Shown piece after piece: positions 1-64,000 of a DNA stretch of 64,000 nucleotides. The stretch's first letter is position 1. Every line of letters starts with the position of its first letter. The notes beneath the pieces were generated by a model, which made no database searches, was not told the DNA's origin, and saw only the letters and a program-made list of their open reading frames with translations. A program made the translations under genes and the position numbers. The stretch is from Zoroaster sp. YZ-2022 (lineage: Eukaryota; Echinodermata; Asteroidea; Forcipulatida; Zoroasteridae): the NCBI GenBank assembly GCA_029582265.1, contig CM055822.1, positions 37,898,679-37,962,678 of the forward strand. Direction: 5' to 3'.

Positions 1-144
1 CGCCCCGTGTACAAAGTGTACACGTTCTCGCCAAAAATCTTCATCCAAACACTTCTTCCCGTGTACAAAATTCTTGCCAAGCTAACGTTATACATGTACA
101 TCCCAAAGATTACACTGAAATGTTCACATAAAAATTTACAGACG

Positions 145-720
145 TATGAATGACGTCATTGGTTTTAGAAACTGAGTCACATTTCGAGCTTTCATACATG
201 TACATGTATATGGTGTATATTTTGTATTTTATGTGAACATGATGCGAAGTGATGTTGAGTTTAGGTCGAGTTGTCACAAGGCTCGCGTTATGGGTTGTGG
301 TGTAGCTCACTGGTCCGTGTCGAGTTGTCACAAGGCGCGACATGTTTTCATCCCCAGCGTCACATTAAACTGTGAATAAAATGATATTTACATGTGTATA
401 CACTGACATAATATTGACGTCATTTGTTTTAGAAACTAAGTCACATTACGGACTTTCATATACATGTACGTTGGATATGAAAATGCCAGGTCGAATTTTG
501 CATGCAATGTACATGTAGGTCGAGTTGTCACAAGGTTCGGGCACAGTCGTGGATCCTAGTTGTTCGTGTTGAGTCGTCACAAGGGTCGAGACGTCCTACC
601 CTCCGCAGCGTCACACTAAAATGTGAATAACATGATATTTACTGATCTTGTTATGGTGACGTACTCTGTTTTAGGCACTAATTAACATTACGGGCTTTCA
701 TATGGTGCATGTTTTGTATT
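145..720. repeat. Diverged tandem cassette, about 250 bp, three copies
   Basis: Three degenerate copies of a block recur at about 250-bp spacing. TGACGTCATT-like cores lie at 151, 415 and 657, each followed by a run resembling GTTTTAGAAACTRAGTCACA, and GTCGAGTTGTCACAAG lies at about 265, 319, 519 and (diverged) 568. No coding potential is visible. The GTCGAGTTGTCACAAG unit reappears inverted at 27012-27118. Confidence 0.7.
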
Positions 721-1070
721 AATGTAACGATGCTCAGTATGACGTCATCCACGTGTTAACTTATGCGGTTTTGGCAGAAACAATAAGAAAAATTATCGAA
801 CGAAAACAATAAAGTTTTGGCGACCAGGCCGAAACCCTATCAATACACATGTGTTAGCCATCAAACCATCAATGGTGTCTTTTTTGACACCATGCTTGCT
901 AATTGGACACCCTGAATAAATATTATATGCAATACACAGGCAACAGTATTGTACAATGTTTTAAGTAATTTCATTTTGACGTGGATACCCTGTTTTTAAA
1001 AAACAAAATTACTAAATTGGGATGCCATACGTACATGTACAGTATGTATAAATTCCAAATTTAGGCCAAC
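721..1070. other. Non-coding, one short perfect hairpin
   Basis: No gene is recognised. ATGGTGTC at 872-879 and GACACCAT at 886-893 form an 8-bp stem around a six-T loop. It may be the junction of an eroded TIR element, but nothing larger is visible. Confidence 0.4.
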
Positions 1071-1250
1071 ATGCGCTCGCGGTGTATTATTTTCAGACAC
1101 TGAGTTCATCTAAAAATATGACACCGATTCCATGCCCTGTCAAAAGTCTGCTGAGATTGTGACGATATTGTCCCTTTAAATTAGGCCTGGAATTTCAAAG
1201 AAGCCACTGATGGCCCGAATTGCCCTGGTCTTGGCCATGGTGCCCCTTCA
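1071..1250. mobile_element. MITE remnant (GTGACGATATTGTCCC-ended family)
   Basis: The stretch is closely matched by 7795-7884 plus 8224-8300 and by 28650-28738, and it shares an end sequence with the complete-looking copy at 54442-54657. The end GATTGTGACGATATTGTCCC matches the TIR of that copy. The opposite TIR is absent here, so this is a half element. Confidence 0.6.
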
Positions 1251-2448
1251 AAATGTTCCCAGAGATTCTGATATTTCTACTGGAAGTGCCATTTACTGAG
1301 GAATGCACAAATGACATTCCAGGCCTGCCAATTAATGTAAATTAGGAACTTTAAATAATAATCATTGACTATCAAAGCAGTGGCAAACATGTATTGTTCT
1401 GGACAGCCAAAACGACCTTCAAAACAATTTATTTTAGCATGCACCTGACACTTTGAAGTCTTTGATATTACTGAATAGTCTATTGAACAACAATGACAAT
1501 GCATTGCAAACTTACAGTGTACAGGTGTCATTGTACAAACACTGTACAGTCTAGCCTTGAACAGGGCTGTTTACTTGCCATCTTGTGGGTTGAACAGTTC
1601 CCATACCGATTTCTTGGCTCAGAAATTCAGCTATACTGTATTATTTTGCGATGAGCAATATCAGCAGACCTGTGGGTACAGCCCAGTTGCGAGTTGCAAC
1701 CTTGTCAACATTTGTAGTAAAGAACAGCCTTATAAGCTAAATGTTTTCCCCACCCAAAAAATGATTATTCTGTACTACACTGTACATGAACTTGTATTTG
1801 AACATTCTTGTTATTTTGTGGGTAGTATAATGTTGTCCAAATCACAGACCCAGTAGCAATTACAAAGTTCAATAAATTTTATTTTACAACCTTTCATTGA
1901 CATACAATGTATTGCTACACAAAGTTATGCAGTTGTGGGTACTAACCAATACCATTAACCAATGAGGATACACCTTCCATTGGCCAAGTTTGAATCTTAG
2001 CTGGAAATGGAAAGAATGATCAAGGCATGTTGCCAAGCCGTAACTGGCGACAGCTGGTCACTGGGTACTGCAGGATCTTGTAAACCATGTACATGTATAA
2101 GTGTAGTCTGTGCTCTGCTTGGAAATAATTTTGTTATCAGCAGCAGTGCGCCTTGACCAAGGATAACAGTATACTGTACACTGTGTACACATACATGTAC
2201 TGTTCTGTACTAGTCTATTTATTCCACCATAGCCCAAAATTATTTAATTTTAAATACATTCTACATGTAGATTTATAATAACGTTTGTATTGTCTCCCCT
2301 GGGCACCAGTGTTTCACTGAAAGGTCTCCACAGGTTAAACAAAACATGTAAATGCCTATACATGTATGTACATGTACATGTACACTTGCATACATACAGT
2401 GTAGCTGAATTAACTGTTTGGTTTGCATAAATTTACATGTATGTACAA
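1251..2448. other. Non-coding, no gene recognised
   Basis: Short open frames exist on both strands but show no domain, splice-site pattern or repeat homology. Several TACATGTA units are present, including a short array around 2362-2384. Confidence 0.5.
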
Positions 2449-2607
2449 CGGCGTAGCGAAGGCATTTTCTTTGGGGGGGGTGTGAAGGCCATTTTGCCGA
2501 CTGACATTACCGAATAAAAGTAAAATCGCCACAAAGACAAATTACACACCTGTTTTGATTTTGTTTGAAATAGAGAAAGAATGAAAACTGACTGGGAATA
2601 AATAAAT

Positions 2608-2941
2608 GACTTTTTAATTTGAGCGAAGAAAATTTGACTGAACCGGGTCTTGAACCCGAGACCTCTGAATTACCGTACCAGCGCTCTACCACCTGAGCTA
2701 TCCAGCCCTATGATGGCGTCCTCCCAAATAGTCAACTATCTTTGCTCGGGTTGGGCTAAAAAGCAGTTAATGGGTTATGGCTTCTGACTGGCATCCCAAC
2801 CCAAGCAAAGATAGTTGACTGTTTGGGAGGACGCTATCATAGGGCTGGATAGCGCAGGTGGTAGAGCGCTGGTACGGTAATCCAGAGGTCTCGGGTTCAA
2901 GTCCGGGTTCAGTCAAATTTTCTTTGCTCAAATTAAAAGTC
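2608..2941. repeat. Long palindrome (foldback) with tRNA-like arms
   Basis: Arms 2608-2755 and 2795-2941 are near-perfect inverted copies around a 39-base loop. Each arm contains a tRNA-like sequence with an A-box-like TAGCTCAGGTGG (TAGCGCAGGTGG on the + arm) and a B-box-like GGTTCAAGACC or GGTTCAAGTCC. The acceptor stem does not pair, and the anticodon arm has a T-T mismatch with C before the would-be GGT anticodon, so these are not functional tRNA genes. The right arm reads on +, the left on -. Confidence 0.8.
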
Positions 2942-7789: not shown

Positions 7790-8300
7790 AACATGTGCTC
7801 GCGGTGTATTATTTTGAGACACTGAATTCATGAATCTAAAAATATGACACCGATTCCATGCCCTGTCCAAAGTCTGCTCAGATTAATAATAATGTATAGC
7901 GCACGTATCCACCAACTGAGTGGTGCTCAAGGCGCATTATATTATTACCCCTGCTCATAAGGCTCATAAATCATTCCTGAAACCATCTCAGCTCCCTGGG
8001 GAGTATACAGCTCAATTGCTGCCATTACAGCGCATATAGGGCTAATCAACCAACTCTGCCCTCACAGGTACCCATTTAACCCCTGGGTGGAGAGAAGCAA
8101 TTATGGTTAAGTGTCTTGCTCAAGGACACAAGTGTCACGGCCGGGATTCGAACCCACATTCTGCTGCTAACACCAGAACTTGAGTCCGGTAAGCTGGTAA
8201 GCTAGACCGCTCGGCCACGACACAGATTGTGATGCTATTCTCCTTTTACAATAGGCTTGGAATGTCAGAAGAGGCCACTGATGGCCTGAATTGTCTTGCC
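7790..8300. mobile_element. MITE remnant interrupted by a SINE
   Basis: Positions 7790-7884 and 8224-8300 are together colinear with 1065-1250, so this is one older repeat split by the SINE at 7885-8223. The duplicated AGATT at the break marks the insertion. Confidence 0.8.
7885..8223 (-). mobile_element. tRNA-derived SINE, full length, minus strand
   Basis: The reverse strand starts with a class-II tRNA-like head: TGGCCGAGCGG (A-box region) and GGTTCGAATCC (B box). A body shared with the other copies in this window follows, then an (ATT)n tail that appears here as AATAATAATG. The element is flanked by a 5-bp target-site duplication AGATT (7880-7884 and 8224-8228). The 5'-head, body and short-tail plan is that of a SINE mobilised by a LINE. 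Confidence 0.9.
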
Positions 8301-11378: not shown

Positions 11379-11909
11379 GTACCTGTAGTCCTTCTGTTAA
11401 TCCACTATCCCTAGGTAGTACATGTATAGGGCTAGTGGTAAATGCAACCCTTGTGTTGACACATGTAATAATAATGTAACACTGGAAAGAGGGGTGCTAC
11501 ACGATGAAGAAAACACACTTATAAGATAAGCTTCTTGGGCCGAACGAATATTTTATTTATTTCTCAGTGGCTATGACAAGAAGTACAAAATTTATTCTTA
11601 TACTCACTATACTGACTGTAGGGTCACAAAGTTATTGGACTAGCAGTACAGCAGAGAGAGAGAGAAGTGTGTTGGAGTAAGAGCAAGAGACAAAGTGAAG
11701 TTTTCTAATCTAACAGAACTTAATAAAATGGGATCTGGTCACTTACAACTGTGGGGTAGTTTGTTTATATTATAATTTAGGGGAGGTCGAAAAGGTCATA
11801 AAATTGGTCTAGGGGATGTCAGTCTTGGAGACAGGGAAATTTATGATCCCACTGACCCCACATGTGGTCAGTGGCCTTAAGTGTAAAATCTACCAGATGT
11901 CAGCTTACA
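11379..11909. other. Non-coding, no gene recognised
   Basis: A short (GA)n-like tract lies near 11652-11665. Otherwise there is only unique AT-rich sequence and scattered TACATGTA. Confidence 0.5.
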
Positions 11910-12258
11910 ATAATAATGTGGACTTATATAGCGCACTTATCCACTAAACTGGTGCTCAAGGTGCATTATATTATTACCCCTGCACATCAGGCTCATAAAT
12001 CATTCCTGAAACCATCCCAGCTCCCTGGGGAGTATACAGCTCAATTGCTGCCATTACAGCACATATGGGGCTAATCAAACACAACAACCAACTCTGCCCT
12101 CACAGGTACCCATTTACCCCTGGGTGGAGAGAAGCAATTACGAAGTGTCTTGCTCAAGGACACAAACACCATGGTCGAGGTTGGGATTCGAACCCACATT
12201 CTGACGACGCGGCCATCAGAACACAAATCCGATGCACTAAACCGCTCGACCATGGCAC
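11910..12258 (-). mobile_element. tRNA-derived SINE, minus strand
   Basis: Same family as 7885-8223: AATAATAATG tail on the left, the shared CCCTGGGGAGTATACAGCTC body phrase, and the tRNA-like head on the right. The head variant here reads CATGGTCGAGCGG on the reverse strand and shares an arm with 20299-20360 and 33237, marking a subfamily distinct from 7885. Confidence 0.88.
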
Positions 12259-12524
12259 TTCATACTGACATTGACAAAGTATAATGTGTACAGTTTTTTG
12301 TAATGTGCACTATCCATAAGATGTACAATACACACAAGAACATGCATAATGTACCCTCATCACCCTACATGTACATGTAATTGCTGAGTAAACTCCGGTT
12401 GCCAGTCAACTTGCCCCCTGGCAAACTCGCCCCTTACAAACTCGTCCCTCAGAAAATTTCTCCCGACAAAGTCGCCCCTCGGCAAACTCGCCTCCCCATT
12501 ATGGTATCGAGACTGATTTAATAT

Positions 12525-12903: not shown

Positions 12904-13143
12904 GACAGTAAATCAACTTAAACATTTCAATTAACGTTTTATTTAACAATTTTAAGTACATATGTAAATCTTACATGTACGTACTGTACATTCATTATTA
13001 CATTATTTACAAATAAAATTAATAGAGAACTTTCTGTTTTGTCTGACAGTGTGTCAGCGTGTGTCTTGACATGGTCAACTCACAATGGTGCACAAATATT
13101 ACCAACCGTTTGGTGCTGATCATCCTACTCTATGTCGCATATT

Positions 13144-13474
13144 AATAATAATAATAATGTGTGGATTTATATAGCGCACGTATCCACCAACTAAGTGGTG
13201 CTCAAGGCGCATTATATTATTATCCCTGCTCATAAGGCTCATAAATCATTCCTGAAACCATCTCAGCTCCCTGGGGAGTATACAGCTCAATTGCTGCCAT
13301 TTCTAGCGCATATAGAGCAAACCAACTCTGCCTTCACAGGTACCCATTTAACCCCTGGGTGGAGAGAAGCAATTATGATTAAGTGTCTTGCTCAAGGACA
13401 CAAGTGTCACGGCCGTGATTCGAACCCACATTATGTTGCTAACACCAGAACTTGAATCCGGTAAGCTAGACCGG
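13144..13474 (-). mobile_element. tRNA-derived SINE, 5'-head truncated
   Basis: Nearly identical in body to 23526-23864, sharing the ATTTCTAGCGCATATAGAGC variant. Homology stops at about 13474, just before the CTCGGCCACGACAC head end. It is therefore 5'-truncated by about 15 bases. Confidence 0.85.
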
Positions 13475-20874: not shown

Positions 20875-21315
20875 AGAATGTCATATCCGACCACTACTTT
20901 TTAAGTGTTTTTGGGAATTTTTTTTTGCAACCACTAACCAATTAAAACATTATTCTATCGATTTTTTGGGGTACAGAAAGCAAAAACTATCTTTAAAATC
21001 CACTTTTATGATGGTTTTTGGACTTTATTTCCCTACTAAAAAAATCCTCCCCTTCAGAAAATAGGATGCTATTATAGTTGCCACTGCGCATGTACAATGA
21101 CCGTGTTGGTCACTAATGGTGAGTTGACAAGATCTGACTGACATGACTGAGGAAGTCATCGTATACCAAAAATGCCCGATTTTTCATGAAATAAATATCC
21201 AGGAATAATTTGAAGTGTATGTCCTTATGTTCTCTACCTTACTACATGTAGGTAGGTAAAATTACATTATTGGTTATAATGAATGAGAAAAAGTGGCGGT
21301 CGGATAAGACATTCT
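20875..21315 (-). mobile_element. TIR MITE, about 450 bp, copy 1 (inverted)
   Basis: Ends resemble AGAATGTCGTATCCGACC and its complement. The body is the reverse complement of 21433-21893 and 27121-27569. With copy 2 it makes a large palindrome around a 117-base spacer (21316-21432). Confidence 0.85.
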
Positions 21316-21432: not shown

Positions 21433-21893
21433 AGAATGTCATATCCGACAGCCATTTTTTCTCATTCAATATAACCAATAATGTAATCTTACCTACCCAG
21501 TAAGGTGGAGAACATATGGATGATGATGGACTTATACTTCAAATTATTCCAGGATATTTATTTCATGAAAAATCAGGCATTTTTGGTAGGCCTATACGAT
21601 GACTTCCTCAGTCATGTCAGTTTGATCTTGTCAACTCTCCGGTTAGTGACAAACAGGGTCATTGTACATGTACATGCGCAGTGGCAACTATAATAGGATC
21701 CTTCTATTTTCTGAAGGGGAGGATTTTTTTTAGAAGGGAAATAAAGTCTGAAAATCATCATATAAGTGTATTTTAAAGATAATTTTCACTTTCTGTACCC
21801 CCAAAAATTGATAGAATAATTTTTTAACTGGTTAGTGGTTGCAACAAAATTCTAAGAAAACCCTTAAAAAGTGGTGGTCGGATACGACATTCT
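21433..21893 (+). mobile_element. TIR MITE, about 450 bp, copy 2
   Basis: Begins AGAATGTCATATCCGACA and ends GGTCGGATACGACATTCT. Internally it carries TACATGTA at 21665-21672, where copy 1 has only TA (21093-21094 on the other strand). Confidence 0.85.
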
Positions 21894-23525
21894 TTCCGAG
21901 ATCTGAGGGAGTAATGTTATCGTTGTCGTTATAAATTCATAATTGCGACACAATGACTAGGTATGTGGCAATCCCATGCATTGCCGCTAACCTTTTTGGC
22001 CGCGGCCTCAATCTCGGGTTCAATCGCCGTGGCAAAGACACCGTGGAGCTAGCGCTTTGTTATGTTTCACTGAGGGCGTTCTTTTTGGCGTACCTAGTAC
22101 ATGTAGCTCTTTTTTCGAAGATGTAGATCACATATTCTCCTTCAACCTCGTTCTCGAATTTTCTGAATACGGCAATTAGAAGTTTCCAAAATAAATTCTC
22201 GAAATTGGGGTTTGTTCTTGCTCATCAAAACCATCGACGATTTACCCAAAGGTGAGTAAAATACCTTATCAAACCACAATAATAATTTTTCTATACTTGT
22301 TTTCTACCTCTTGGCCAATTTTGACGGCGATTGGACGATTCGCAGTTATGTTTTTTGGATTCGCAGACATCGATGTCAACCAAAGATTGTATTGCGCTGC
22401 GTTCAGCGCGCTACCATCTTTGATGTCAACAAAGCGAATGTTCAATCCGATAAATCGTCCTTCATAATTTTTTTCATCTTTCCAGTCCAATATCATTTAT
22501 TAATTTTTCTAATGTTTAATTAAATCAGGAATAAGAATTTCTCACGGATTTCAATATAAATATTTAAAAATCCTTAGATTTGAGTAATTTTTTTCCCTGT
22601 TTTTTAAATTTATTTTCATTATTTTGTTGAAATCATCTTTCCGGTCCAATATAATTTATAAATTGTTCTAATGTTTAGAACAGGGATGAGAATCTTTTGC
22701 GTATTTCAGTGTAAAAATATGAAAATATTCCTCAGATTTGAGCAACTTTTTTTTTCATTATTTTTGTTAAATTTTTTTTTAACACTTTTTTTGTATTTCT
22801 TATTTCTTGGATTAGTGCAGAAATATGAGCTAAACAATAAATTATCCTCTGATAAAAAACCAGAATGCAGCTCAGACCACCAAAAATGCCTCAGCTTTGA
22901 AGGTATTTGGCAACCCCTTGGCCCAATCACGTGTGCCAAAATGCCATGGATGGCGTCCGCGAAATGCTGCGAATAAAATTTCCTTTTTTTTTCATTTCCC
23001 TGATCTCATCCCTTAACTTTTACAGGTGCCTGTCATTTGTAAATCAGCACTACAATTATAAAATAAACTAATAATTGAATTAGCCTGAAAATACATGTAG
23101 GTTATTATTCTTCCTCTTTTCCCAAGCATTCCAGTGATACCAACCTTTTGAAAATTGGACAAGAATTAAGAAAGTTTATATATGGAATCCGAGAAAATCC
23201 CAGAAAATCTTGGAAACGGGTCACAAGTCAAATTTACATTTCTTTTGTTTTTCTTTATAAAATAATTGACCGAAACGGGCCTAAAATTGCCGGATTCAAC
23301 ATGTCATAACTAAGGAAGATGATCCTTATACATGTATCATTGTAAAAAAATGTAAATGTCTTTTCAAGACCTTGACAATGATGCCACTAACACTATTGGA
23401 ATCTGTTGATTTTGACATATTTTGTCACATGACACATACCCACATGGCTACAATCATAATAATGACAATGTTGCCTTTTTGTGTTCTATTTTTATTACAT
23501 GTTTTAGATTATCAATCTATTTTCT
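21894..23525. other. Non-coding, AT-rich, with a 159-bp tandem duplication
   Basis: 22475-22610 and 22634-22765 are diverged direct copies (CATCTTTCC-GTCCAATAT, then CTAATGTTTA, then CAGATTTGAG-like). No gene is recognised. Confidence 0.6.
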
Positions 23526-27118: not shown

Positions 27119-27120
27119 GT

Positions 27121-27569
27121 AGAATGTTGTATCCGACCGCCACTTTTTCTCATTCAATATACATGTAACCAATAATGTAATCTTACCTACCCAGTAAGGT
27201 GGAAAACATATGGATGATGATGGACATATACTTCAAATTATTCCAGGATATTTTCATGAAAAATCAGCCATTTTTGGAATATGATGACTTCCTCAGTCAT
27301 GTCAGTCTGATCTTGTCAACTCACCCATTAGTGACCAACACGGTCATTGTACATATGCGCAGTGGCAACTATAATAGGATCCTTCTATTTTCTGAAGGGG
27401 AGGATTTTTTTAGAAGGGAAATAAAGTCCGAAAACTATCATAAAAGTGGATTTTAAAGACAGTTTTCGCTTTCTGTACCTCCAAAAATCAATAGAATCAT
27501 TATTTAACTGGTTAGTGGTTGCAAAACCCCACAAAACCCTTAAAAAGTGGAGGTCGGATACGACATTCT
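27121..27569 (+). mobile_element. TIR MITE, about 450 bp, copy 3
   Basis: Starts AGAATGTTGTATCCGACC and ends GGTCGGATACGACATTCT, with the same body as 21433-21893. It has TACATGTA at 27160-27167 where copy 2 has TA at 21472-21473. Confidence 0.88.
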
Positions 27570-36321: not shown

Positions 36322-36728
<407 letters not shown>

Positions 36729-36921
36729 GTTGCTGTGATGTTTTTATATTCTGTGTGTCTATACTGCTGTTCATCGTCAGTTTATATATGTTTGTAGGAA
36801 TTGTTTCCTATTCTTGCAATATGGCATGTTTTCCACACTTCTATGAGAATATAGTGACAATTTACATGTATCACCCCTACATACATTGTATTTTCATTTT
36901 TTCTTACATTCACTTCTGCAG

Positions 36922-37257
36922 TTGAATACACTATACGGCTTGTGGATGGTGGTAGTAGCTTGGAAGGCCGTGTTGAGGTGTATGTAAATGGAACATGGGG
37001 GAGAGTACATGTATGTGATGACAGCTGGGACATTAATGATGCTACAGTGGTGTGTCGACAGCTTCGCTATGGGTCAGCTTTATCAGCTGAAACATCAGCA
37101 TATTTTGGCCAGGGTAGTGGAGACATAGTTCTTGATGATGTAGCCTGCACAGGATTAGAAACTAACATGGGTCATTGCCAAGCGTCAACCAGTCACAATT
37201 GTGGCCATAGTGAAGATGCAGGTGTTATCTGCAGTGGGAATGATGGGGACCATACAG
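36922..37257 (+). CDS. SRCR domain exon 2 (intact, two-codon insertion)
   Basis: Encodes one scavenger-receptor cysteine-rich domain, an extracellular ligand-binding fold used in innate immune receptors and mucosal proteins. It is 336 nt, phase 1-1, with acceptor TTCTGCAG and donor GTATGG. Visible motifs: [20 protein letters not shown], then [44 protein letters not shown]. Six cysteines are at the group-A positions. TACATGTA at 37006-37013 adds two codons (Val-His inserted in the WGRVHVCDD stretch) just before the first Cys, which the sister exons lack. Confidence 0.9.
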
Positions 37258-37299
37258 GTATGGCTATATGCTTTAATTTTCATCTAACAGAATGTCACG

Positions 37300-37337
37300 T
37301 ACATGTACATGTACATGTACATGTACATGTACATGTA
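37300..37337. repeat. Perfect (TACATG)6TA array in SRCR intron
   Basis: Thirty-eight bases of uninterrupted hexamer in the intron after exon 2. Confidence 0.95.
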
Positions 37338-45236: not shown

Positions 45237-45660
45237 ATTACTCTGCCAGTCCTAGACTGGGTTATCGTCAGCTACCGGCTGATGAATTTAAGTTACTCCG
45301 CCAGTCCCAGACTGGGTTAAATGTCTTAATCGTCAGCTCTCCGCGCGCTGAATATAAATTACTCCGCCAGTCCCAGACTGGGTTATCGTCAGCTACCGGC
45401 TGATGAATATAAGTTACTCCGCCAGTCCCAGACTGGGTTAAATGTCTTAATCGTCAGCTCTCCGCTGAATATAAATTACTCCGCCAGTCCCAGACTGGGT
45501 TATCGTCAGCTACCGGCTGATGAATATAAGTTACTCCACCAGTCCCTGACTGGGTTAAACGTCTTAATCGTCAGCTCTCCACTGAATATAAATTACTCCG
45601 CCAGTCCCAGAATGGGTTATCGTCAGCTACCGGCTGATGAATATAAGTTACTCCGCCCGT
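45237..45660. repeat. Tandem repeat, about 118-bp unit, 3.6 copies
   Basis: Units start near 45237, 45359, 45475 and 45592. Each holds two CCAGTCCCAGACTGG hairpins (CCAGTC-GACTGG) and one TCAGCTACCGGCTGA hairpin. Confidence 0.9.
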
Positions 45661-47382: not shown

Positions 47383-47660
47383 ATATTACCACTTTAAAAG
47401 AGGTAACAGGAAAACAAATTGAGTGACATTTTGCTTAAAAGTTAACCATTGTTGTTTTACCAGCAATAAACTTTCACATGTTAGTATTTTTCCTCAAGCT
47501 TGTACCATAGCCACAGTGCAGCTCATAATCAAGTGTATATTGCAGACTATAAAATATGTTCTTGTTCTGAAATAAATGATTTACATACATGTACATGTAA
47601 CTTCAATTGCTATGGCCAACTTGTGACTTACAAGCAATGGTCTCTTCATTACGATGACAG

Positions 47661-47990
47661 ATTCTGACGGGAATGTCCGACTGATCGGTGGAAGCACTGC
47701 CTCTGAGGGCAGAGTTGAAATCTACTACAACACCCAATGGAATACGGTCTGCGATGATGACTGGGACCTTACTGATGCCTCAGTAGTCTGCCATCAATTG
47801 GGGTACCTTAAAGCCATTAGTTACTATACAGACGCCTACTTTGGTGAAGGGAGTGGTGACATATTGATCTCTGAAGTGACCTGTACAGGGGGGGAGTCAC
47901 GAATACTTGACTGCTCACATAATAACTTTTATAACGTACATGTACCATGCAGCCACTCAGAAGATGCCGGTGTTGAATGTGAAGAACCTG
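47661..47990 (+). CDS. SRCR domain exon 7 (intact, two-codon insertion)
   Basis: 330 nt, phase 1-1, acceptor ACGATGACAG, donor GTAAGT. Motifs: NVRLIGGSTASEGRVEIYYN, VCDDDWDLTDASVVCHQLGY, FGEGSGDILISEVTCTGGES, CSHSEDAGVEC. Six cysteines. TACATGTA at 47937-47944 inserts two codons between FYNV and PCSH, absent from exon 8. This subfamily differs from exons 2-6 (YYN rather than YVNG), so the locus holds at least three SRCR lineages. Confidence 0.92.
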
Positions 47991-48412
47991 GTAAGTTAGA
48001 CCATGGGGTTAATTTACCGATCCATTCAGCTTCGACCACCATAGTGACTGCCTAGCAACGGCACACATGGGTGCAACACATGAGCCATGCCCCGATGCAT
48101 ACCATGCGCGTACACAGCAGACGCGTCAGTCATAGTAAAACGTGATATTACCACTTTAAAAGAGGTAACAGAAAGAAAAAAATTTAGTCACATTTTGCTT
48201 AAAAGTTAACCATTGTTGTTTTACCAGCAATAAACTTTCACATGTTAGTATTTTTCCTCAAGCTTGTACCATAGCCACAGTGCAGCTCATAATCAAGTGT
48301 ATATTGCAGACTATAAAATATGTTCTTTTTCTGAAATAAATGATTTACATAATGTCCATTGCCATGGGCAACTTGTGACTTACAAGCAATGGTCTCTTCA
48401 TTACGATGACAG

Positions 48413-48736
48413 ATTCTGACAGGAATGTCCGACTGATCGGTGGAAGCACTGCCTCTGAGGGCAGAGTTGAAATCTACTACAACACCCAATGGAATACGGT
48501 CTGCGATGATGACTGGGACCTTACTGATGCCTCAGTAGTCTGCCGTCAACTGGGGTACCTTAAAGCCATTAGTTACTATACAGACGCCTACTTTGGTGAA
48601 GGGAGTGGTGACATATTGATCTCTGAAGTGACCTGTACAGGGGGGGAGTCCCGAATACTTGACTGCTCACATAATAACTTTTATAACGTACCATGCAGCC
48701 ACTCAGAAGATGCTGGTGTTGAATGTGAAGAACCTG
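48413..48736 (+). CDS. SRCR domain exon 8 (intact)
   Basis: 324 nt, phase 1-1, donor GTAAGT. Almost identical to exon 7 but with CRQLGY restored to the consensus and without the two-codon insertion. Six cysteines present. Confidence 0.93.
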
Positions 48737-48900
48737 GTAAGTTAGACCATGGGGTTAATTTACTGATCCATAAGCTTCGACCACCATAGTGACAGCCGAG
48801 CAACTGCACACATGGGTACAACACATGAGCCATGCCCCGATGCATACCATGCGCGTACACAGCAGACGTGTCATCAGTCATAGTAAAGTGTGACACTAGC

Positions 48901-49442
48901 GCCACGCTAAAAGAAAAAAATCAGGGTTTCGCACCACGCATAAAAAAAATGACGTGCCACACAGAAAAAAGCCCTGATGCGCAAAAGACTTACAGGCAGT
49001 CATGCAGACAAATTACCTGATTAACATTCATTTATACAGATGGTGGTGAGGTTTAGAATAATTTTGGCACCAATTATTATCACCCTATCAACCACGGTGA
49101 GCCACTCATGCTTGATTGACAAAGCTTGAATTTTTAATAAGCAACATCAAGCTTGATTATGCCACAAAGTACTCTCGAAATTCACTTGAATTTCACCCGA
49201 GCACGTCACTTACAGTGTAAAGAAACCAAAATGGACAGAGGACTAACTTTTGTGAATGACTACAACTTTACCAAAATAAGGAAGAACTTTACCTGGAAGA
49301 AAGATACTTGAAGTTCTTTGGTCATTTGTTATGCCTTATGGCCCAATTTCCGGACATTAAAGATATTTATTTCTCGTAACATCTGGGCACATGATTGACC
49401 AAACAGCAGTATGAACACTGCACTATGGAATTTTTCAGCATT
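48901..49442. other. Intron or intergenic, no exon recognised
   Basis: No repeat with terminal structure and no SRCR-like frame. Confidence 0.45.
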
Positions 49443-50836: not shown

Positions 50837-51106
50837 CTAATTGCGGTGACACCATGTGAAATTCTCAATTGAGTAGTAATGAGTTCTGAAAAGAACATTT
50901 TTTACTGGTTTTTACCGTCATTTTGACTACCCTGAACAATACCAGACAATGCTTTTACCAGACAGTCGGCTCATTTTGACCTGTAAATGTACTTACATGT
51001 ACTACACGTAAGGTTTGACAGTGTTTGACTTTTTAAGTGCACTAGATATACCTTGGGAAGTATTTCAACATTTTGACTGATTTTGAACCTTGTAGTAAGA
51101 GGGTTA
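50837..51106. mobile_element. TTAA MITE family B copy 3, partial, plus repeat block
   Basis: 50895-51106 is the complement of family B (GCTCATTTTGACCTG, then AGTAAGAGGGTTAG at the right). 50837-50897 matches the complement of 41985-42052. TACATGTA at 50994-51001 replaces TA found in the two other family B copies. Confidence 0.7.
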
Positions 51107-55555: not shown

Positions 55556-55902
55556 TGTCGTGCGGTCTAGCGCACTGAACTCAAGTTCTGTGCTAGCAGC
55601 AGAGTGTGGGTTCGAGCCTGGCCGTGACACCTGTGTCCTTGAGCAAGACACTTAACCATGGTTGCTTCTTCCACCCACGTGTTAAATGTGTACCTGTTAA
55701 AGCAGAGATGGTTTGCTCTATATGCGCTAGAAATGGCAGCAATTGAGCTGTATACACTCCCAGGGAGCTGAGATGGTTTCAGGAATGATTTATGAGCCTT
55801 ATGAGCCTTATGAGCAGGGATAATAATATAATGCGCCTTGAGCGCCACTTAGTTGGTGGATACGTGCGCTATATAAATCTATACATTATTATTATTATTA
55901 TT
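55556..55902 (+). mobile_element. tRNA-derived SINE, near full length, plus strand
   Basis: Head with a 5-base deletion in the A-box region (GTCGTGCGGTCTAGCGC), B box GGTTCGAGCC, full body, (ATT)n tail ending 55902. It follows the partial copy directly, giving two heads in tandem. Confidence 0.9.
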
Positions 55903-56010
55903 AGTACATCGCCACAAAAGGCGGTCATTGTGTTGCGTTTGAGTCCAAATGTATTGAAAGAGACACAATAGCATACCTGCCAACCTTGACAAGTGAAAAT
56001 TCGTAATACT

Positions 56011-56367
56011 GTTATGGGTGTTGTTTAGTCGTGGCAACGGCCGCCACACCCATCGGGATCGACACAACAGACAAAATGGAATAGCCAATTTAAACGTGTC
56101 TTCTCAATCTACAACTTAGTATTTTATTAACATCAATAACATGTTATACGGTAAATAGGAATCCAAATATTACAGTAGTCTAAATGAGCCCGAGCGACCC
56201 GACGGCACGGTTGAGGGACACAGACCCCGAGAACTCGGACCTCACCCTTTTTATAGGGTTCTATAAAATAGGTGTTACATAACATAAAATAGGTGTTACA
56301 TTATAACTTGCATTCCAAACCTCAAGAGCCGAGACAGGAATGCGAACAATGAGGTAGCGGCATTACA
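56011..56367 (-). repeat. Gypsy 3' LTR
   Basis: Starts TGTTATGGG and ends GGCATTACA as read here. Differs from the other LTR mainly in the first 45 bases and at a single site thereafter. Confidence 0.93.
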
Positions 56368-56390
56368 TACGCCCTCCTTTTTAAATTGGC

Positions 56391-57042
56391 TCCTGACACC
56401 TAATTTTAAACAATTATATTTATATTAAATTACCTATGTTTTCTTTTCTTTCGTTATGCTGACAAATGCTGGCCAGTCAAATACCAACAATACGACAAAA
56501 TCAAACACAAACAATTCAATATAAATGTTTGGCAATTATTATAAGCAATTGGTATTAATTTAACGTTGTTCAACGCTGCAGTCTGTAGTCCGTTTACGGG
56601 CATGAGACGTCCAGTCTGCGCACAGCGTTGTTGCCATCTCCAAGTCTAGTCTGTATAGACGGCTGAGAAGGATCAGGACGACGTCCCGGGAAACTTCTGC
56701 ACGGCTGCCTATGTGGTGGTCGTAGCTACTTCTCGCAAGCCGAGCTGAAGGTCGTCGCCTTTATTCGTGATAAGGAATAATCCGCAATCCTTAATAAACT
56801 AAAACATTACAATCATTATTCAAAATAATAAATACATCAATGATGATATTAGCATGTTTCAGTTTAGGTGAACACTCAAAGTGTTGACTTAAAACAAATT
56901 CATATACACAAAAAGTACTTATTTCCGGTACCTCTCAAAATACATTAAATTCAAAATTTTACATCCATATCAATTAAATTTTGAATAATAATGTCAACAC
57001 ACCAAAACTTTAAAGTCAAAACAACTTAAAATCCTTGCTGAC
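56391..57042. other. Gypsy 3' untranslated segment
   Basis: AT-rich sequence between the chromodomain stop and the polypurine tract; no further domain is seen. Confidence 0.6.
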
Positions 57043-57642
57043 TTATTTAACTTTACCAGTTATTCTAACAGGATTATTTTGAAGAAACTTACGGAGCGTT
57101 TCATTCAAATTTTCAACTGGCTCCCATGAATTTTGATTATTGGGAAAATCTTTCCACTTTATCAGATAATGCAATTTGCCGTTTATAAACTTTCCTCGTA
57201 GGACTTTCTCAACTTGGAACTCTTGGCTGTTTGGTTTTCCAACATTTGGTAAACCAGGTATTTGGGGGCTTCTTTGTTGTGGTTCGTGAATTGACATGTG
57301 TGGCTCAAACGAATCTTCAGGGCAATCACTATCTTGTAGGTGTTCAAGTGGATCCCTTTGAACAAAATCACGTGGTACTTCTTCGTTAGATGGTCTAATA
57401 AAACGATTATAAGCAAATTTCATTCTATTAACATGAATTGGAGCATGGAGCAGTTTGTTGTTCTCCAGGTTTCTAACCTTAAAATTTACAGGACCAGTCT
57501 GTTGTACAAGTAAATATGGACCACACCAGAACTTTTGGAGTTTTCTAGATAATCCTTTCTGTATTGCTGGTATATAAATATACACAACATCTCCAACTTG
57601 GTAAGCTACTTCTTGCGTACGACTATCATAACGGTCCTTCAT
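57043..57642 (-). CDS. Gypsy integrase C-terminus plus chromodomain
   Basis: The 199-residue open part starts inside the integrase C-terminal domain (VGDVVYIYIP, KFWCGPYLLVQ, VHVNRMKF-like). It continues through a Pro-rich linker into a chromodomain at residues about 141-188 (FQVEKVLRGKFINGKLHYLI, then KWKDFP and SWEPVENL), with the aromatic cage positions largely kept. In chromoviruses this domain is thought to direct integration to marked chromatin. It is probably continuous with the 57877-58455 integrase but separated by a frame change near 57860. Confidence 0.88.
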   Translation of the reverse strand: MKDRYDSRTQEVAYQVGDVVYIYIPAIQKGLSRKLQKFWCGPYLLVQQTGPVNFKVRNLENNKLLHAPIHVNRMKFAYNRFIRPSNEEVPRDFVQRDPLEHLQDSDCPEDSFEPHMSIHEPQQRSPQIPGLPNVGKPNSQEFQVEKVLRGKFINGKLHYLIKWKDFPNNQNSWEPVENLNETLRKFLQNNPVRITGKVK

Positions 57643-57876
57643 AGATGCTTGGTTAGATTCTAAATGTTGCTTTGAAATTTCTCTGGCTACTTCAAGTTGA
57701 GTGATTAAGTTATGAATATAATCTCTTACGTTACGTTCAGAGTATTCTGGTTTAGGACAAAGTGATACATCAATCGAGTACTGCCTCTCTCCCCATACAA
57801 CATAAAAAATGGACTGAAACCAATCGAATTATCTGCTGGTGTACTACGATATGCGAACTGGATAGCAGGGACAAAA

Positions 57877-58455
57877 TTATCCCAGTTTGTGTGAAATTTG
57901 TTCACATAATGAGACAGTCGTTAAGATTACAGCATTAAACCTTTCTTGTACTGCATTACACTGAGGGTGATATGGGCTAGTATTAACCTTTTCGGTACGC
58001 ATTATCTTACATACTTCTTGAATCAGTTTGCTTAAGAAATTTGTACCTCTGTCACTAAGAAGAATACGAGGACAGCCATGGTTACATATAATCTCTTTAA
58101 AGAACACAGTAGCTATTGTGGCGGAATCAATTTTGGCAACAGGCACTAAAATTGGCCATCTAGTGCAGTGATCCATGAAACATAAAACATACCGATTCCC
58201 AGTTTCAGTGACTGGTAGAGGTCCTAAAATATCTACGCTTACTCTCTGAAATGGCCCTGGTACTGTCATGGTAAGTAATGGTGCTACGACTTTATGCTTA
58301 TGGGTTTTCACACGAGGACACGAGTCACAAGATCTAACCCAGTTATCAATATCACGATACATAAATTTCCAAAAATACCTTTGGCGTATCTTACTGTAAG
58401 TTCTGTGGAATCCAAAATGGGCTGAGAGTACTTGATCATGACAATGATGGAGCAA
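57877..58455 (-). CDS. Gypsy integrase core
   Basis: Zinc-binding HHCC region (His13, His17, Cys43, Cys46 of this frame) followed by the catalytic core with Asp75 (VSVDILGPLP), Asp135 (LLSDRGTNF) and Glu171 (QERFN), the D,D,E triad. It inserts the cDNA copy into host DNA. The frame is broken from the RNase H part upstream and the C-terminus downstream. Confidence 0.92.
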   Translation of the reverse strand: MLHHCHDQVLSAHFGFHRTYSKIRQRYFWKFMYRDIDNWVRSCDSCPRVKTHKHKVVAPLLTMTVPGPFQRVSVDILGPLPVTETGNRYVLCFMDHCTRWPILVPVAKIDSATIATVFFKEIICNHGCPRILLSDRGTNFLSKLIQEVCKIMRTEKVNTSPYHPQCNAVQERFNAVILTTVSLCEQISHKLG

Positions 58456-58462
58456 TCCGTAT

Positions 58463-59086
58463 CTATATATGATGTTGGAATATATAACTGGACAATACTA
58501 CGTTCCGGAAATCTTCTGTTCGAGGTGAATACCAAATATGATACAAAATACCATCATGTATAAAATACTGATCTATTTCTAATAGTAAATTACGAGCTAC
58601 TTTATCATCATCAGGTAAGACATTCGATTCCAGATATTCGATAACTAACTTGGAAAATTTATCGACTCTTTGCTCAACCTTGAATTTGTCTAAATCAATA
58701 TATTCGTGAATCTGTGGCAACTGGTTTTTAAATTTCTCCTGATTATGATTCTGAACCCGTTTACCACGTTGATATCTCAAATTTCGAGTTTCATCAACAT
58801 TAGATGAGCTATCTATTTGAACTGATTCAGTCGTTTCGTTTACCATAGCTGGCAGTACATCAAGATATTGATTAGATTTAAGCTCATTGTCAGCTATAAC
58901 TGAACTCTTCGGTTTCACAACACTTAATGGTTTAGGTGTCTCATTAACTTCATGATTATGTATCCTGCTAAGAGCATCAACATTAGTAAGTTTCTTTCCA
59001 GATCTATGTTCAATTTCATAACTGTAAGACTGTAGATACAGAGACCAACGAGCTAGTCGGCTGGAAGAATGTTTCTGACCAAACAA
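58463..59086 (-). CDS. Gypsy RNase H end and linker
   Basis: Begins near the end of RNase H (FGQKHSSSRLARWSLYLQSY, then VDALSRI, the typical end of the domain), followed by a linker to the integrase. 59087-59365 holds the rest of RNase H in broken frames. Confidence 0.8.
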   Translation of the reverse strand: MFGQKHSSSRLARWSLYLQSYSYEIEHRSGKKLTNVDALSRIHNHEVNETPKPLSVVKPKSSVIADNELKSNQYLDVLPAMVNETTESVQIDSSSNVDETRNLRYQRGKRVQNHNQEKFKNQLPQIHEYIDLDKFKVEQRVDKFSKLVIEYLESNVLPDDDKVARNLLLEIDQYFIHDGILYHIWYSPRTEDFRNVVLSSYIFQHHI

Positions 59087-59365
59087 CCACTTGAGAGCTT
59101 GGTGATCCGTGACTATTTTTAAATTTACTGTTATGTTCAGGTAGGTTGAAAATTGTTTACACCTTCTACTACTGCTAATGCTTCTAATTCTGTCACCGTA
59201 TAATTTCGTTCCGCAGTTTTAAGTTTTCTACTTGCGTATGCAATTACTCTTTCATGTCCGTCTTGTATTTGGGAAAGCACAAAACCTAGTCCGGACAAGG
59301 ATGCATCAGTCTGTACACAAATTGTGCACTTCCATCAAATCTAGGGTGAGCTAATACTGGAGGTT

Positions 59366-60418
59366 CTAGAAGTTTTGTTTTAAAATCTCAAACGCCTTTG
59401 CACATTCTGTTGTCCACTGGAACAAGGCATTTTTACGGGTTAGGTTGGTTAAAGGTTCAGCAATTTTACTGAAATCTTTTATGTAACGTCTGTAATAACC
59501 AACAAAACCTACAAAAGCTCTAACCTCAGAGACATTCCGAGGTACTGGGTATTCTTTCATGACAATGAGTTTGGCTGGATCTGTGGCAACACCGTTTTGA
59601 CTAATAATGTGTCCTAGATAATTGATTTTATCCCATGCAAATGAACATTTTTTTGGCTTTAGCTTGAGATTAGTGTTCCTAAATTTCTGAAATACCTGTT
59701 GGAGGTGGCTAATATGTTCTTGGAAAGTGTTACTATAAATGATTATGTCATCCAAGTAAACTAAACAAAATTTCCAATGTAAACCTCGTAAGACTTCATA
59801 CATAGTTCTTTGAAACGTACTAGGTGCATTATGTAATCCAAAAGGTAGAACATTGAATTCGTATAGTCCATCTTGTGTAATAAAGGTAGTTTTCTTCTTG
59901 GAATCTTTATCTAGGCCTATTTGCCAGTAGCCTGATGCCATATCTAAAGTCGAGAAATATGCGGGTTTAGTCATACCCAGGTTGTCAAATGTATCCGAAA
60001 TATTGGGTAAAGGAAAATTGTCTCTCTCTGTGATTTGGTTCAGAGCTCTGAAATCTATACAAAATCTATACTCTCCTGTTTTCTTAACCATTACCACCGG
60101 ACTTGAAAATGGCGAAGTTGATTCTGAAATAATACCATCATTTAACATTTTGTTAACGTGTTCTCTAATGGTCTTCTGTAAATTAGGCGAGTGCCTATAA
60201 GGACGAGCTCTAACGGGACAGTTATTACCAGTATTAATTCTATGTTGAACTTTGTCATAAAATCCACGAGGGCTATTTTTGGTTTCGAAGACATCTGCAT
60301 AATTATCAATTAAAGATTCAAGTTGTTGCCGTTGAATAGGCTCTAAGCGAGTTGGTGAGATATTAATTTTATCTAGTATCTCTCGTGTCAAATGAAACAG
60401 ATTCTGTTCCTTTAACAT
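59366..60418 (-). CDS. Gypsy reverse transcriptase
   Basis: The 350-residue frame holds all main RT motifs: RPYRHSP, FCIDFRALNQ, STLDMASGYWQI (Asp159), LPFGLHNAPSTFQR, the catalytic YLDD (residues 221-224), then LGHIIS and VRAFVGFVGYYRRYI leading into RNase H. Copies element RNA into DNA. It is the longest intact block of the element. It overlaps the preceding frame by about 50 bases, marking a frame change. Confidence 0.95.
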   Translation of the reverse strand: MLKEQNLFHLTREILDKINISPTRLEPIQRQQLESLIDNYADVFETKNSPRGFYDKVQHRINTGNNCPVRARPYRHSPNLQKTIREHVNKMLNDGIISESTSPFSSPVVMVKKTGEYRFCIDFRALNQITERDNFPLPNISDTFDNLGMTKPAYFSTLDMASGYWQIGLDKDSKKKTTFITQDGLYEFNVLPFGLHNAPSTFQRTMYEVLRGLHWKFCLVYLDDIIIYSNTFQEHISHLQQVFQKFRNTNLKLKPKKCSFAWDKINYLGHIISQNGVATDPAKLIVMKEYPVPRNVSEVRAFVGFVGYYRRYIKDFSKIAEPLTNLTRKNALFQWTTECAKAFEILKQNF

Positions 60419-61224
60419 TTATGTCACCTTTAGGTTCAATATCATCAAAATTGGCAAAATTTGAGACATCATTTTCTGAGACAATGGTGAACGTGCCTAC
60501 TTTAGTACGAGAAAATATGGTTATTGGATTTACAGATGGATTCATAATCATTACAGTTACATCTGAACCAGAGTTCGTCAATCGTCGGGAGCGAGATATA
60601 GTGTTAGCTACTACAAGTCCAATACTTTGTATGTTACGTCCTCCATGACAATGACCTATTATTCCGTCAGGCAGGGAATTTTTAATTCTTACTTTACAGA
60701 CCGATTGGGAATGTGGAGGGATGGTGATTTTATCTGTGGTACGCAACTGGCTTTCTTACGAATACAAAGTTTGGATCTGCCAAAATCAATAGATACCTTT
60801 TGAGCGTCAAGAAATTCAGAACCAAGGATAATCTTTTGATGCAATTTACTTGCTACATAAAATGGTACAATGAATCTGGAAGTTAAAATGTAAATTGGTA
60901 CATTTAGATATCCTACAATAGCTATGTTACCTCCATTAGCTGTTGTTGCATGGTTAAATTTAGGTTTCATTAACCGTAATTGTTTAAGACAGGGTTTTCC
61001 TTGTAGAACGATTCTGAAATAAGATTGCTAGTTGCACCTGTATCAATAAGACAATTCAGAGTCTCTTCACCTATGGTAACAGGAATCATACTACGTTTAT
61101 CCAAACCAATCTCAATGGGATGTTCTGTTTGGATTTCTGAGCCATCTACAATGATCCCCAATTTGTCAGTAGACGGCATAACTAGTTTAAAGGATAACCA
61201 TCCTTGTGAAATTTTGAAAAACAA
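60369..61224 (-). pseudogene. Gypsy protease region, frame-broken
   Basis: Three overlapping fragments: 60970-61224 with the aspartic protease active site (LIDTGATSN), 60689-60970 with ILGSEFLDAQKVSIDF, and 60369-60746 linking to RT. Single-base shifts near 60972 and 60720-60746 separate them. The protease would process the polyprotein. Confidence 0.85.
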
Positions 61225-61974
61225 TCGGCTTGCTTATGACCATATTTCTGACAGCGATTGCAAACACCATTAAATCGTTTAGATGACGACTTATGATTAG
61301 TACTTGACCGTTTACCCTGATAATTTCTTATATTTTGATGTTTGATTCGAATTTATTGTGGTCTCAAGCTTATTGACTTGGATTTGAAGTTGCTCAAGTT
61401 TTCCAGTAATTTCATTCACCATAGGGTTTTGTTCTATGGTGTTAATTTTCTGTTGGGGTGTTGAAATTTTCTCAACACTTTCACCAAGTCGGGCATAATT
61501 TATAGCGTCTGTCATATTTACAGGCTCTTTTGAGACAACAAATGCCCTAAGTGATGGTCTAAGACCACGAACAAATCTGGCTAATTGCTCGTTTTCTGAG
61601 CGGTGCAGCTGCCTACTTAAATGAACAATCTCAGTAAAGTATAAATCTAAAGATTCATTTTCACCTTGTTGACGTTCTGCTAACTTGGCTTCTCGTATCC
61701 ACCTAACATTCGTACCTTCAAAAACTGATCTGAGAGCACAAACAACCTTACTATAATCGCCTTTTAAACTATCAGATAAGTCGGCAAACCATAATGCAGC
61801 AGGACCTGTTAATCGTAGACCTAACGACAGAACTTTCTTGTCATTTACAAAATCTCGCAATTTTGCATAATTCTCAAATCTACTTAAAAAAAGATCAAGG
61901 TCTTCAGTTCCTGAATATGTGTCCTTAAAATTACATTCATATTTACTTGCCATCATGTGAAAGTTGGTGTACAA
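61190..61974 (-). pseudogene. Gypsy Gag with zinc knuckle, frame-broken
   Basis: 61312-61974 encodes 220 residues of a retrotransposon Gag core (YSGTEDLDLFLSRFENYAKL, ALWFADLSDSLKG, YFTEIVHLSRQL). The frame stops at 61312. The CCHC zinc knuckle CNRCQKYGHKQADC lies at about 61210-61270 in another frame, and protease starts in a third. This could be programmed frameshifting, but the number of later breaks argues for decay. Confidence 0.88.
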
Positions 61975-62154
61975 ACAATTACAAAATATAACAATAATAC
62001 AATAAACTTACGCTTGGGGATAGAACTACAACAAAATAATACAATAACAAACTTATTTACATACCTGAGCTCAACCCCATAGCGGTTCTGTGTCCCTCAC
62101 ATGTCCCTCACCATGTCGTGCAGTCGGGACGTTGTACCCGGATCTTCCACCATA

Positions 62155-62511
62155 TGTTATGGTAAGTTTAGTCGCGGCAACGGCCGCACACCAGCATCGG
62201 GATCGACACAACAGACAAAATGGAATAGCCAATTTAAACGTGTCTTCTCAATCTACAACTTAGTATTTTATTAACATCAATAACATGTTATACGGTAAAT
62301 AGGAATCCAAATATTACAGTAGTATAAATGAGCCCGAGCGACCCGACGGCACGGTTGAGGGACACAGACCCCGAGAACTCGGACCTCACCCTTTTTATAG
62401 GGTTCTATAAAATAGGTGTTACATAACATAAAATAGGTGTTACATTATAACTTGCATTCCAAACCTCAAGAGCCGAGACAGGAATGCGAACAATGAGGTA
62501 GCGGCATTACA
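62155..62511 (-). repeat. Gypsy 5' LTR
   Basis: 357 bp, TGTTATGGTAAG to GGCATTACA, near-identical to 56011-56367. Confidence 0.93.
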
Positions 62512-62515
62512 ATAC

Positions 62516-62790
62516 TAATACTAAAGTTTGGCACATTTTACGCATGTCTGAAATACATGTGCATGTATGTACAGGAATCAACGGCACTGCTTGTGGGATC
62601 GACTCCACGTGTTTCTTGACATCGTTAAGGCCACCATGGCTAATGCAGAAATCCGTGCTGCATATTTTACAAAATGCGTGAAGTTCCCCAAGTTTGGAGG
62701 CAGCAATAACTGGGTAGCTTTCTGAGTATTTATCTTGACATTTCTGCACCGCAGCTTTCTGCGACATTTTTATTTTGCTGTTCCGTTCCC
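62516..62790 (-). pseudogene. Zinc-finger (BED/hAT-like) N-terminal remnant
   Basis: Minus-strand frame with CQDKYSESYPVIAASK and CKICSTDFCISHGG, then NDVKKHVES, a CxxC...HxxxH-type finger common at the start of hAT-type transposases. It is cut off toward the gypsy insertion and has no catalytic part here. Confidence 0.55.
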
Positions 62791-62879
62791 GTATCACTAT
62801 TTACGGCATTCGGGAATGTCGAACGTAGTCCCGCTGGTTGCCTGCTTTCTGCACAACGTACATGCAAACTCCTTACCCT

Positions 62880-64000
62880 CCACCGTGCCGGTGGCCTCTC
62901 CATCCAACTCTACCGACATCTCAGACCATCCAGCTCATCCTGCCCTAGGTTCTTTGGCCAGCCGAAGATTCACAAACCTGATGTTCCTCTCCGCCCTATT
63001 GTCGCCTCCAGAGGTTCACCTACGTACAACGCAGCCCGTCATTTAGCTAAGATACTCCGACCCTTGGTGGGTCTCACTCAACACCATGTGTCCAACTCCA
63101 GTCAGTTCGTTGAGATCACCCAGGGCCTCACACTTCAACCCAGCGACATCTTGGTTAGTTTTGATATTGTCTCCCTATTCACCAATGTCCCAACTACAGA
63201 GACATGCCTCCTGGTGAAGGACAGACTCGTACAAGATCTTTCTCTTGATGATCGCACATCACTCACCCCGGACCAAATTCATGATTTGCTAACATGTGTC
63301 TCTTCAAGTTGTTTTCAGTTTCAGGGCAAGTTCTACGAGCAGACAGCTGGGACCTCCATGATCTCTCATCCCCGGTCCTTGCTGACATTTTCATGGAAGA
63401 GTTTGAAAACCTTCCCTCAACACCGCCGACCTCCAACCCAAGCTGTGGCTCCGATACGTGGATGACACCTTTGTGGTTTGGCCACGGCAGAGACACACTC
63501 CAGGATTTTCTACAACATCTAAACCAGCAACACCCGAGCATCAAGTTCACCATGGAAACGGAAGAAGATGACAAGATCGCGTTCCTTGATGTTGGGATTT
63601 CAGAAACCCAGACGGCTCCCTACACCACAACGTCTACAGAAAGCCCACGCACACAGATCGGTACCTGAACCAGCGCCCTTCCATCATCCAAGCATCAAGT
63701 CATCGGTCAACCGTACGCTCGTACAACGCGCCTACAACATTTGTGACAAGGACAGCCTTCCCAAGGAACTACTGCACATCCGAACTACCTCAAACGCAAC
63801 GGTTACAATCCCAACAAGATCAACAGCGAAGCTGGTTCCAAACTCCAAAAGCAAGGTAAGGATCTAACCTCTCTGCTTGTCTCCCCTATTCTAGGTTCGA
63901 CGTCTCACAAACTACAACGCATCCTCCGACAAGCAGGCATCGATGTGTTCCACTCAGCCCCCAGCAAACTCCAAGGACTTCTACATACCCACAAGGACAA
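62880..64000 (+). pseudogene. Penelope-like element reverse transcriptase, frameshifted, runs off window
   Basis: Plus-strand motifs in order: FFGQPKIHKPDVPLRPIV and SRGSPTYNAARHLAKIL (from about 62945), ILVSFDIVSLFTNVP, KFYEQTAGTSM (frame stops soon after), SSPVLADIFMEEFE in a second frame, the catalytic YVDD at 63455-63466 in a third, then DKIAFLDVGI. KIHKP and SLFTNVP are hallmarks of Penelope-like RT, which usually carries a GIY-YIG endonuclease after RT; that part would lie beyond the window. At least three frame changes make it non-functional. Confidence 0.85.

Follow-up and report, generated by a model that had tools for sequence, protein, structure and literature searches.

What has made a single palindromic octamer, TACATGTA, the commonest of all octamers in one stretch of a sea-star genome? 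The stretch, hereafter the window, comprises 64,000 bases free of N on contig CM055822.1 (C7) of the 1.00 Gb, 616-contig assembly of Zoroaster sp. YZ-2022 (G000). It holds 146 copies of TACATGTA, whereas an order-2 Markov formula predicts 5.0 and 12 simulated order-2 Markov sequences averaged 4.5, and the abundance that a sequence-only reading of this DNA had found striking is therefore real and strong. The copies fall into 109 runs, of which 84 have one unit, 17 have two and 8 have more; none lies in the part of the window 3' of position 50994, and the density of copies is 2.28 per kb (146 in 64 kb) versus 0.41 per kb in a 200-kb sample made up of 20 stretches of 10 kb from the same genome. 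Genome-wide, TACATGTA occurs 393,335 times and the base-matched palindrome TATGCATA 29,659 times; the reversal of TACATGTA (190,587 copies) sits within TACATG arrays and is thus an unfair control. A second palindromic octamer, TAGGCCTA, reaches 88,276 copies versus 8,687 for its reversal, and the one-base-longer TACANTGTA reaches 103,259 versus 48,281, totals that are not counts of independent events since the listed places of both lie partly in tandem repeats. On the evidence set out below, we think it likely that the excision of Tc1/mariner-type transposons left TACATGTA behind as its footprint and, less often, TAGGCCTA and TACANTGTA.

The first line of evidence comes from paralogous copies, in which the sequence-only reading had pointed to eight places where one copy has TA and the other TACATGTA. 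When these were re-aligned as nine pairs, a clean difference within colinear flanks was seen at six places, namely 47937, 37006 (a single substitution lies nearby), 36381, 36524 (the true position of an octamer previously given as 36534), 27160 and 50994 (against both partners). The other two did not stand as presented, as the empty copy of 21665 already holds TACATG, so that slippage could explain this site, and at the double unit of 47586 the gap splits in two in an untidy neighbourhood.

The direction of change could be read from a duplicated cluster of SRCR-domain exons, which occupies 36297-39000, 42721-43062 and 47383-48914 of the window, with a frameshifted copy at 36297 and further copies of the first exon type on contigs C7, C1 and C2. 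In an alignment of 20 such exon copies (6 window units and 14 copies from 9 fetched places), the inserts at 36381, 36524 and 37006 are each present in one copy and missing from the other 19, by which comparison they are gains and not losses, in agreement with the direction originally proposed; the SRCR copies are related by duplication, so the 19 are not independent witnesses. The insert at 37006 keeps the frame open and adds two residues (GRVHVCDD for GTVCDD), and in 120 homologous animal proteins the corresponding spacing was WGxVC in 501 instances and WGxxxVC in none. Around 36381, the RVEV-WG spacing was the usual one in 470 of 474 homologue matches. The second exon type likewise has an open frame at 47937 and is two residues longer there than the copy at 48689, a case in which the cysteine-spacing test was uninformative because different cysteines were matched in the homologues.

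A census of inserts then covered the window, the 20 sampled stretches and 12 fetched transposase loci, aligned all against all. Alignments shorter than 60 bp or below 75% identity, same-sequence alignments with starts less than 400 bp apart and gaps at which fewer than 10 of the 12 flank columns matched were dropped, leaving 1,051 distinct inserts, from which entries lying <=8 bp from another of equal length were removed by merging. Among the 39 merged 6-bp inserts, 19 can be written as TA-X-TA, with X being CATG in 14, GGCC in 2 and TGCA, CAGT and ATTT in 1 each, so the expected dominance of CATG among 6-bp indels at TA is indeed observed. Ten of the 14 CATG inserts lie in the window, where the one at 36863 is also found in the tandem copy at 37478 and is probably one event, and four lie outside it, in L011, L012 and L014 (two). 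The share of TA-X-TA at other lengths was 18/157 (2 bp), 4/93 (3 bp), 5/70 (4 bp), 3/17 (5 bp), 3/12 (7 bp, two of the three being a single CATTG event in tandem copies), 2/20 (8 bp), 3/26 (9 bp), 1/13 (10 bp) and 2/4 (12 bp). The longer form TACATTGTA at 36882 is also present at 37497 and is probably a single event as well. In a self-comparison of the window, ACATGT-type changes made up 12 of 18 6-bp indel rows, some sites being counted twice.

The palindromes themselves follow a simple logic. Element ends are inverted repeats, so two bases kept on each side always yield a palindrome, and we counted TA-XY-N(k)-rc(XY)-TA, with rc the reverse complement, for all 16 dinucleotides XY against the 12 simulated sequences, with long AT runs masked in the sample. 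At k=0, CA and GG alone exceeded four times the expectation: CA with 146 versus 4.5 in the window and 82 versus 8.5 in the sample, and GG with 5 versus 0.2 and 21 versus 1.6, respectively. At k=1, CA was again in excess (28 versus 4.1 in the window, 30 versus 11.1 in the sample), with all four middle bases occurring, as was GG in the sample (8 versus 1.9). From k=2 to 5, the sample counts for CA were close to background or moderately higher (12-14 versus 7.4-9.0), and the window showed a 2-4 fold excess; the excess of CA at k=6 in the window is the array period, and that of TATATATA in the unmasked sample is an AT microsatellite. This k=0/k=1 pattern is the one expected from two, sometimes three, retained bases per element end, and TAGGCCTA and TACANTGTA point the same way as TACATGTA.

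Elements with suitable ends exist in this genome. The Tc1/mariner-type domain DDE_3 (PF13358) gave 150 scored matches among 1,709 genome candidates, many of them with long open reading frames, and CA...TG ends adjoining TA were seen at two of the fetched loci, L025 (TA-CAGTTTTTCTC...) and L031 (TA-CACTGCTC...). A 597-bp inverted-repeat element, TA-CAGGGTGTCCCC..., came from the random sample (L022:3402-3998), and its empty sites with a single TA are found in tandem units of L022 and in a copy in L009 (four empty places); the element TA-CACTCACTGGCC... in L019 has less tidy empty sites. The TA-flanked CA...TG elements foreseen by the sequence-only reading are thus present at four loci, and the bases found between the two TAs of TACATGTA match their terminal bases. 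The footprint interpretation is partly supported, by the gains, the dominance of CATG and these elements, which are candidate donors. The Tc1 transposase at L031:754-1773 matches proteins of salmonid fish and others at up to 91% identity along its length, a likeness that suggests a recent horizontal transfer. A group of GG-ended elements (L030, L032, L034 and L036) was considered as the source of TAGGCCTA and dropped, the true end of L036 apparently being TAGG.

These observations would be accounted for if a cut-and-paste element with CA...TG ends, inserted at TA, sat between the duplicated TAs and, on its exit, left two terminal bases of each end to be joined as TA-CA-TG-TA, so that the site would end up six bases longer than before. 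If a third base were retained or added, the product would be TACANTGTA. The repair step would require either that both 3' overhangs be retained or that the cut be blunt and two bases inside the ends. We infer that excision of this kind was the cause of the gains and that it also gave rise to the bulk of the genomic TACATGTA copies.

Flanking bases offer evidence that is supportive at most. After removal of flanks resembling decayed units, 232 TACATGTA flanks and 50 TAGGCCTA flanks remained. Relative to all TA, those of TACATGTA are enriched in A at -3 and in G at -1 and depleted of T at -1 (p = 0.003, 1e-4 and 2e-8 at -3, -2 and -1), and those of TAGGCCTA prefer A at -3 (p = 0.012) and A or G at -1 (p = 9.5e-4), with -2 not significant. 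Full symmetric sites were found at 6/53 TACATGTA versus 416/11,545 TA (p = 0.012) and at 2/25 TAGGCCTA (p = 0.33). Half-sites accompany 22/50 TAGGCCTA flanks versus 503/2,158 at other TAnnnnTA, a larger difference than for TACATGTA.

Several results weigh against an origin by excision. The TACATGTA half-sites (30/106) differ little from those of the other TAnnnnTA just given, and TAGGCCTA density does not track that of TACATGTA (-0.13). Mild excesses occur elsewhere among the dinucleotides, for AC (7 versus 2.2) and TC (5 versus 1.9) in the sample and TA (9 versus 2.4) in the window at k=0, and for AT (28 versus 9.2) at k=1. One of the 474 RVEV-WG matches has the two-residue-longer spacing, and the probable TAGG end of L036, seen on comparison with copies in L013 and L018, speaks against its link with TAGGCCTA. 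Published footprints, in the portions of the papers available, usually keep one overhang of 2-3 bases, and here TACATA, TATGTA, TACAGTA and TACTGTA are at most weakly raised (1.1-1.6 times expectation in the sample) and do not appear among the TA-X-TA inserts. The suggested role of TACAGTA and TACTGTA as sister scars is not supported: neither CAG nor CTG was found among the three 5-bp TA-X-TA inserts, the sample counts were about 1.5-1.6 times expectation, and one ACAGT-type 5-bp insert seen before merging is not readable as TA-X-TA. Moreover, a search for occupied alleles at scarred TA sites found none in a small sample of chained BLAST pieces, in which no site was occupied, scarred and empty; TA together with inverted ends was present in 23 of the 116 chains (AT repeats in 10 cases), and the chains gave occupied/empty comparisons alone, with no scar at those sites.

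The distribution of TACATGTA is, in addition, very patchy, which is a further point on that side, with 53 of the 82 sample copies in 3 of the 20 stretches (20 in L011, 20 in L012 and 13 in L014). Stretches with a higher CpG observed/expected have a lower density of copies (Spearman -0.59, p = 0.006, n = 20 stretches), an exploratory and uncorrected correlation, one of nine features tried. The patchiness would fit either accumulation with age or a preference of the activity for certain chromatin. A Ty3/Gypsy-type retrotransposon at 56023-62511, taken as a young comparison stretch, has no TACATGTA and one TAGGCCTA, at 59912, and the six window copies of a 340-bp repeat also have no TACATGTA. Among 20 open reading frames from TACATGTA-rich and TACATGTA-poor stretches, Pfam searches recognised a receptor gene (L012) and a reverse transcriptase (L013), which do not suffice to account for the uneven distribution.

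Among the other explanations, we regard as unlikely, although the best placed of them, a Minos-type variant of excision, in which an element cut with a 4-nt stagger and ending in the self-complementary CATG (or GGCC) leaves overhangs that anneal into TACATGTA. Minos leaves a four-base footprint, and such a variant would account for one uniform palindromic footprint. However, the clear CA-ended elements, in the part of the families seen, begin CAGT, CACT or CAGG and not CATG, and TACANTGTA with all four middle bases better fits two bases retained per end.

Hexamer slippage, by which TACATG microsatellites would grow and shrink and single units would be minimal or remnant arrays, appears quite improbable as the general source of TACATGTA. 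Arrays in the window do reach six units and differ in length among tandem copies, 37 of the 146 window units are second or later members of a run compared with about 4 expected under random placement at TA, and site 21665 already had a unit. Yet change was not confined to pre-existing repeats: most empty sites had been said to offer no hexamer on which to slip, and this is true of six of the eight sites, as well as of the other copies at three exonic sites. Slippage is also at odds with the excess of TAGGCCTA and TACANTGTA and with the 39 6-bp inserts, among which no other hexamer behaves in this way. The gains at plain TA in SRCR exons thus argue against slippage as the sole source, and arrays may still lengthen by slippage on top of excision.

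It is somewhat harder still to credit a TA-directed break and repair in which a domesticated transposase or another nuclease adds CATG without any resident element. This would agree with the finding of no occupied allele at any scar and with the scar-rich window, in which no convincing CA...TG or GG...CC donor element was found, but it does not predict the agreement of the added bases with the ends of resident elements, or the existence of a GGCC type. Selection for a binding site is the least credible, for although TACATGTA is given as a preferred site of Irx (Iroquois) homeodomain factors and as a promoter motif in Phytophthora in the available part of PMC3520976, it arises here as exact 6-bp gains at TA, in coding exons too, and TAGGCCTA shows the same pattern.

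Compared with known systems, the excision footprints proposed here are in part familiar. Tc1/mariner footprints consist of an overhang plus TA, usually 2-4 bases (PMC3878927, PMC7913693, PMC9976928 and PMC2874221, as far as their accessible text goes). The octamer in question, CATG flanked by TA (taCATGta), is described as a rare Tc1 excision footprint in Caenorhabditis elegans (PMC3520976, in the part available, citing Eide and Anderson 1988), whereas here CATG makes up 14 of the 19 6-bp TA-X-TA inserts and the octamer is found by the hundred thousand in 1.00 Gb. Sleeping Beauty and Frog Prince, likewise cut-and-paste elements, leave an overhang plus the duplicated TA, C(A/T)GTA (PMC3878927, from the same accessible text), in contrast keeping three bases as TACAGTA or TACTGTA, both of which are at most weakly raised in this genome. 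Plant Stowaway/mariner miniature inverted-repeat transposable elements also leave a small duplication and a short terminal sequence after excision, as is proposed here, and the available part of the abstract describes no uniform palindrome at such abundance (PMC4561436). In Phytophthora, TACATGTA is likewise highly abundant, as motif-1 upstream of 12,070 genes; in the accessible text it is read as a factor-binding site and argued not to be a footprint (PMC3520976). Among the matches listed in a mostly open-access literature search, in which TAGGCCTA itself was not a search term, neither TACATGTA nor TAGGCCTA was described as a genome-scale footprint. The octamer as a Tc1 footprint is therefore already known, and its scale and palindromic outcome look new.

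A broader proposal, which we hold to be nearly an even call, is that at least two TA-inserting lineages wrote several hundred thousand TACATGTA and TAGGCCTA footprints, some of them in-frame in coding exons, and that scars were perhaps better targets, seeding their own arrays. Cut-and-paste elements are normally counted by their surviving copies. If the octamers are footprints, past excisions become directly countable and datable, and they would form a fossil record of jumps that includes elements since lost; two-residue additions in gene families could likewise be traced to excisions. Repair in this genome would then be a palindromic two-plus-two join and not of the single-overhang type of published footprints, as far as the accessible text of those reports goes, and the regulatory motif of Phytophthora (PMC3520976, in its available part) may merit re-examination.

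Coordinates of the octamers, related runs and comparison element in the window
Feature	Position	Strand	Remark
TAGGCCTA, second palindromic type, versus TA	21587..21594	+	empty in other inverted-repeat arm
TACATGTA versus TA	21243..21250	+	empty in one related copy
TACATGTACATG versus TACATG in other arm	21665..21676	+	slippage possible
TACATGTA versus TA	23092..23099	+	empty in L020
TACATGTA versus TA	27160..27167	+	empty in two related copies
TACATGTA in degraded SRCR exon copy	36381..36388	+	in 1 of 20 copies; 19 with plain site
TACATGTA in same degraded SRCR copy as 36381	36524..36531	+	in 1 of 20 copies; 18 with plain site, one with 2-bp deletion
(TACATG)n array	36686..36728	+	length varies among tandem copies
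TACATGTA versus TA	36863..36870	+	common to tandem copy at 37478
TACATTGTA, one-base-longer form, 7-bp gain at TA	36882..36890	+	common to 37497
TACATGTA in SRCR exon	37006..37013	+	in 1 of 20 copies; 18 with plain site, one with 2-bp deletion
Longest perfect (TACATG)n run in window	37299..37337	+	six units
Two-unit run versus copy at 48350 without run	47586..47599	+	untidy alignment
TACATGTA in second SRCR-type exon	47937..47944	+	polarity from one paralogue
TACATGTA versus TA	50994..51001	+	empty in six other places, some beyond window
Ty3/Gypsy-type retrotransposon, long terminal repeats ~346 bp, 98.6% identical	56023..62511	-	young comparison stretch

Other features of the sequences deserve a brief description. 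The Ty3/Gypsy-type element has separate open frames for gag, reverse transcriptase and integrase/chromodomain. The repeat of about 340 bp, which resembles a short interspersed nuclear element, lies at 7895-8225, 11909-12262, 13140-13473, 23526-23860, 39881-40223 and 55562-55906 of the window and has close copies on many contigs (40 among 910 candidates, not used for polarity). A kilobase-long imperfect inverted repeat occupies 20865-21903, with a related single arm at 27117-27573. In a tandem repeat at G000:C1:1125574-1126809, TACATTGTA occurs in many units, about 33 bp apart; an array match on one viral contig, read in part, was judged to be due to chance. The single-exon receptor gene of L012 has best matches of up to 82%, followed by those of Asterias amurensis (61-62%) and then Patiria miniata and Acanthaster planci (44-45%). 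Finally, the window carries an inverted pair of tRNA-Thr genes in a palindrome of about 327 bp (2612-2938) and a 117-bp tandem repeat of 3.6 copies with 95% match (45236-45657).

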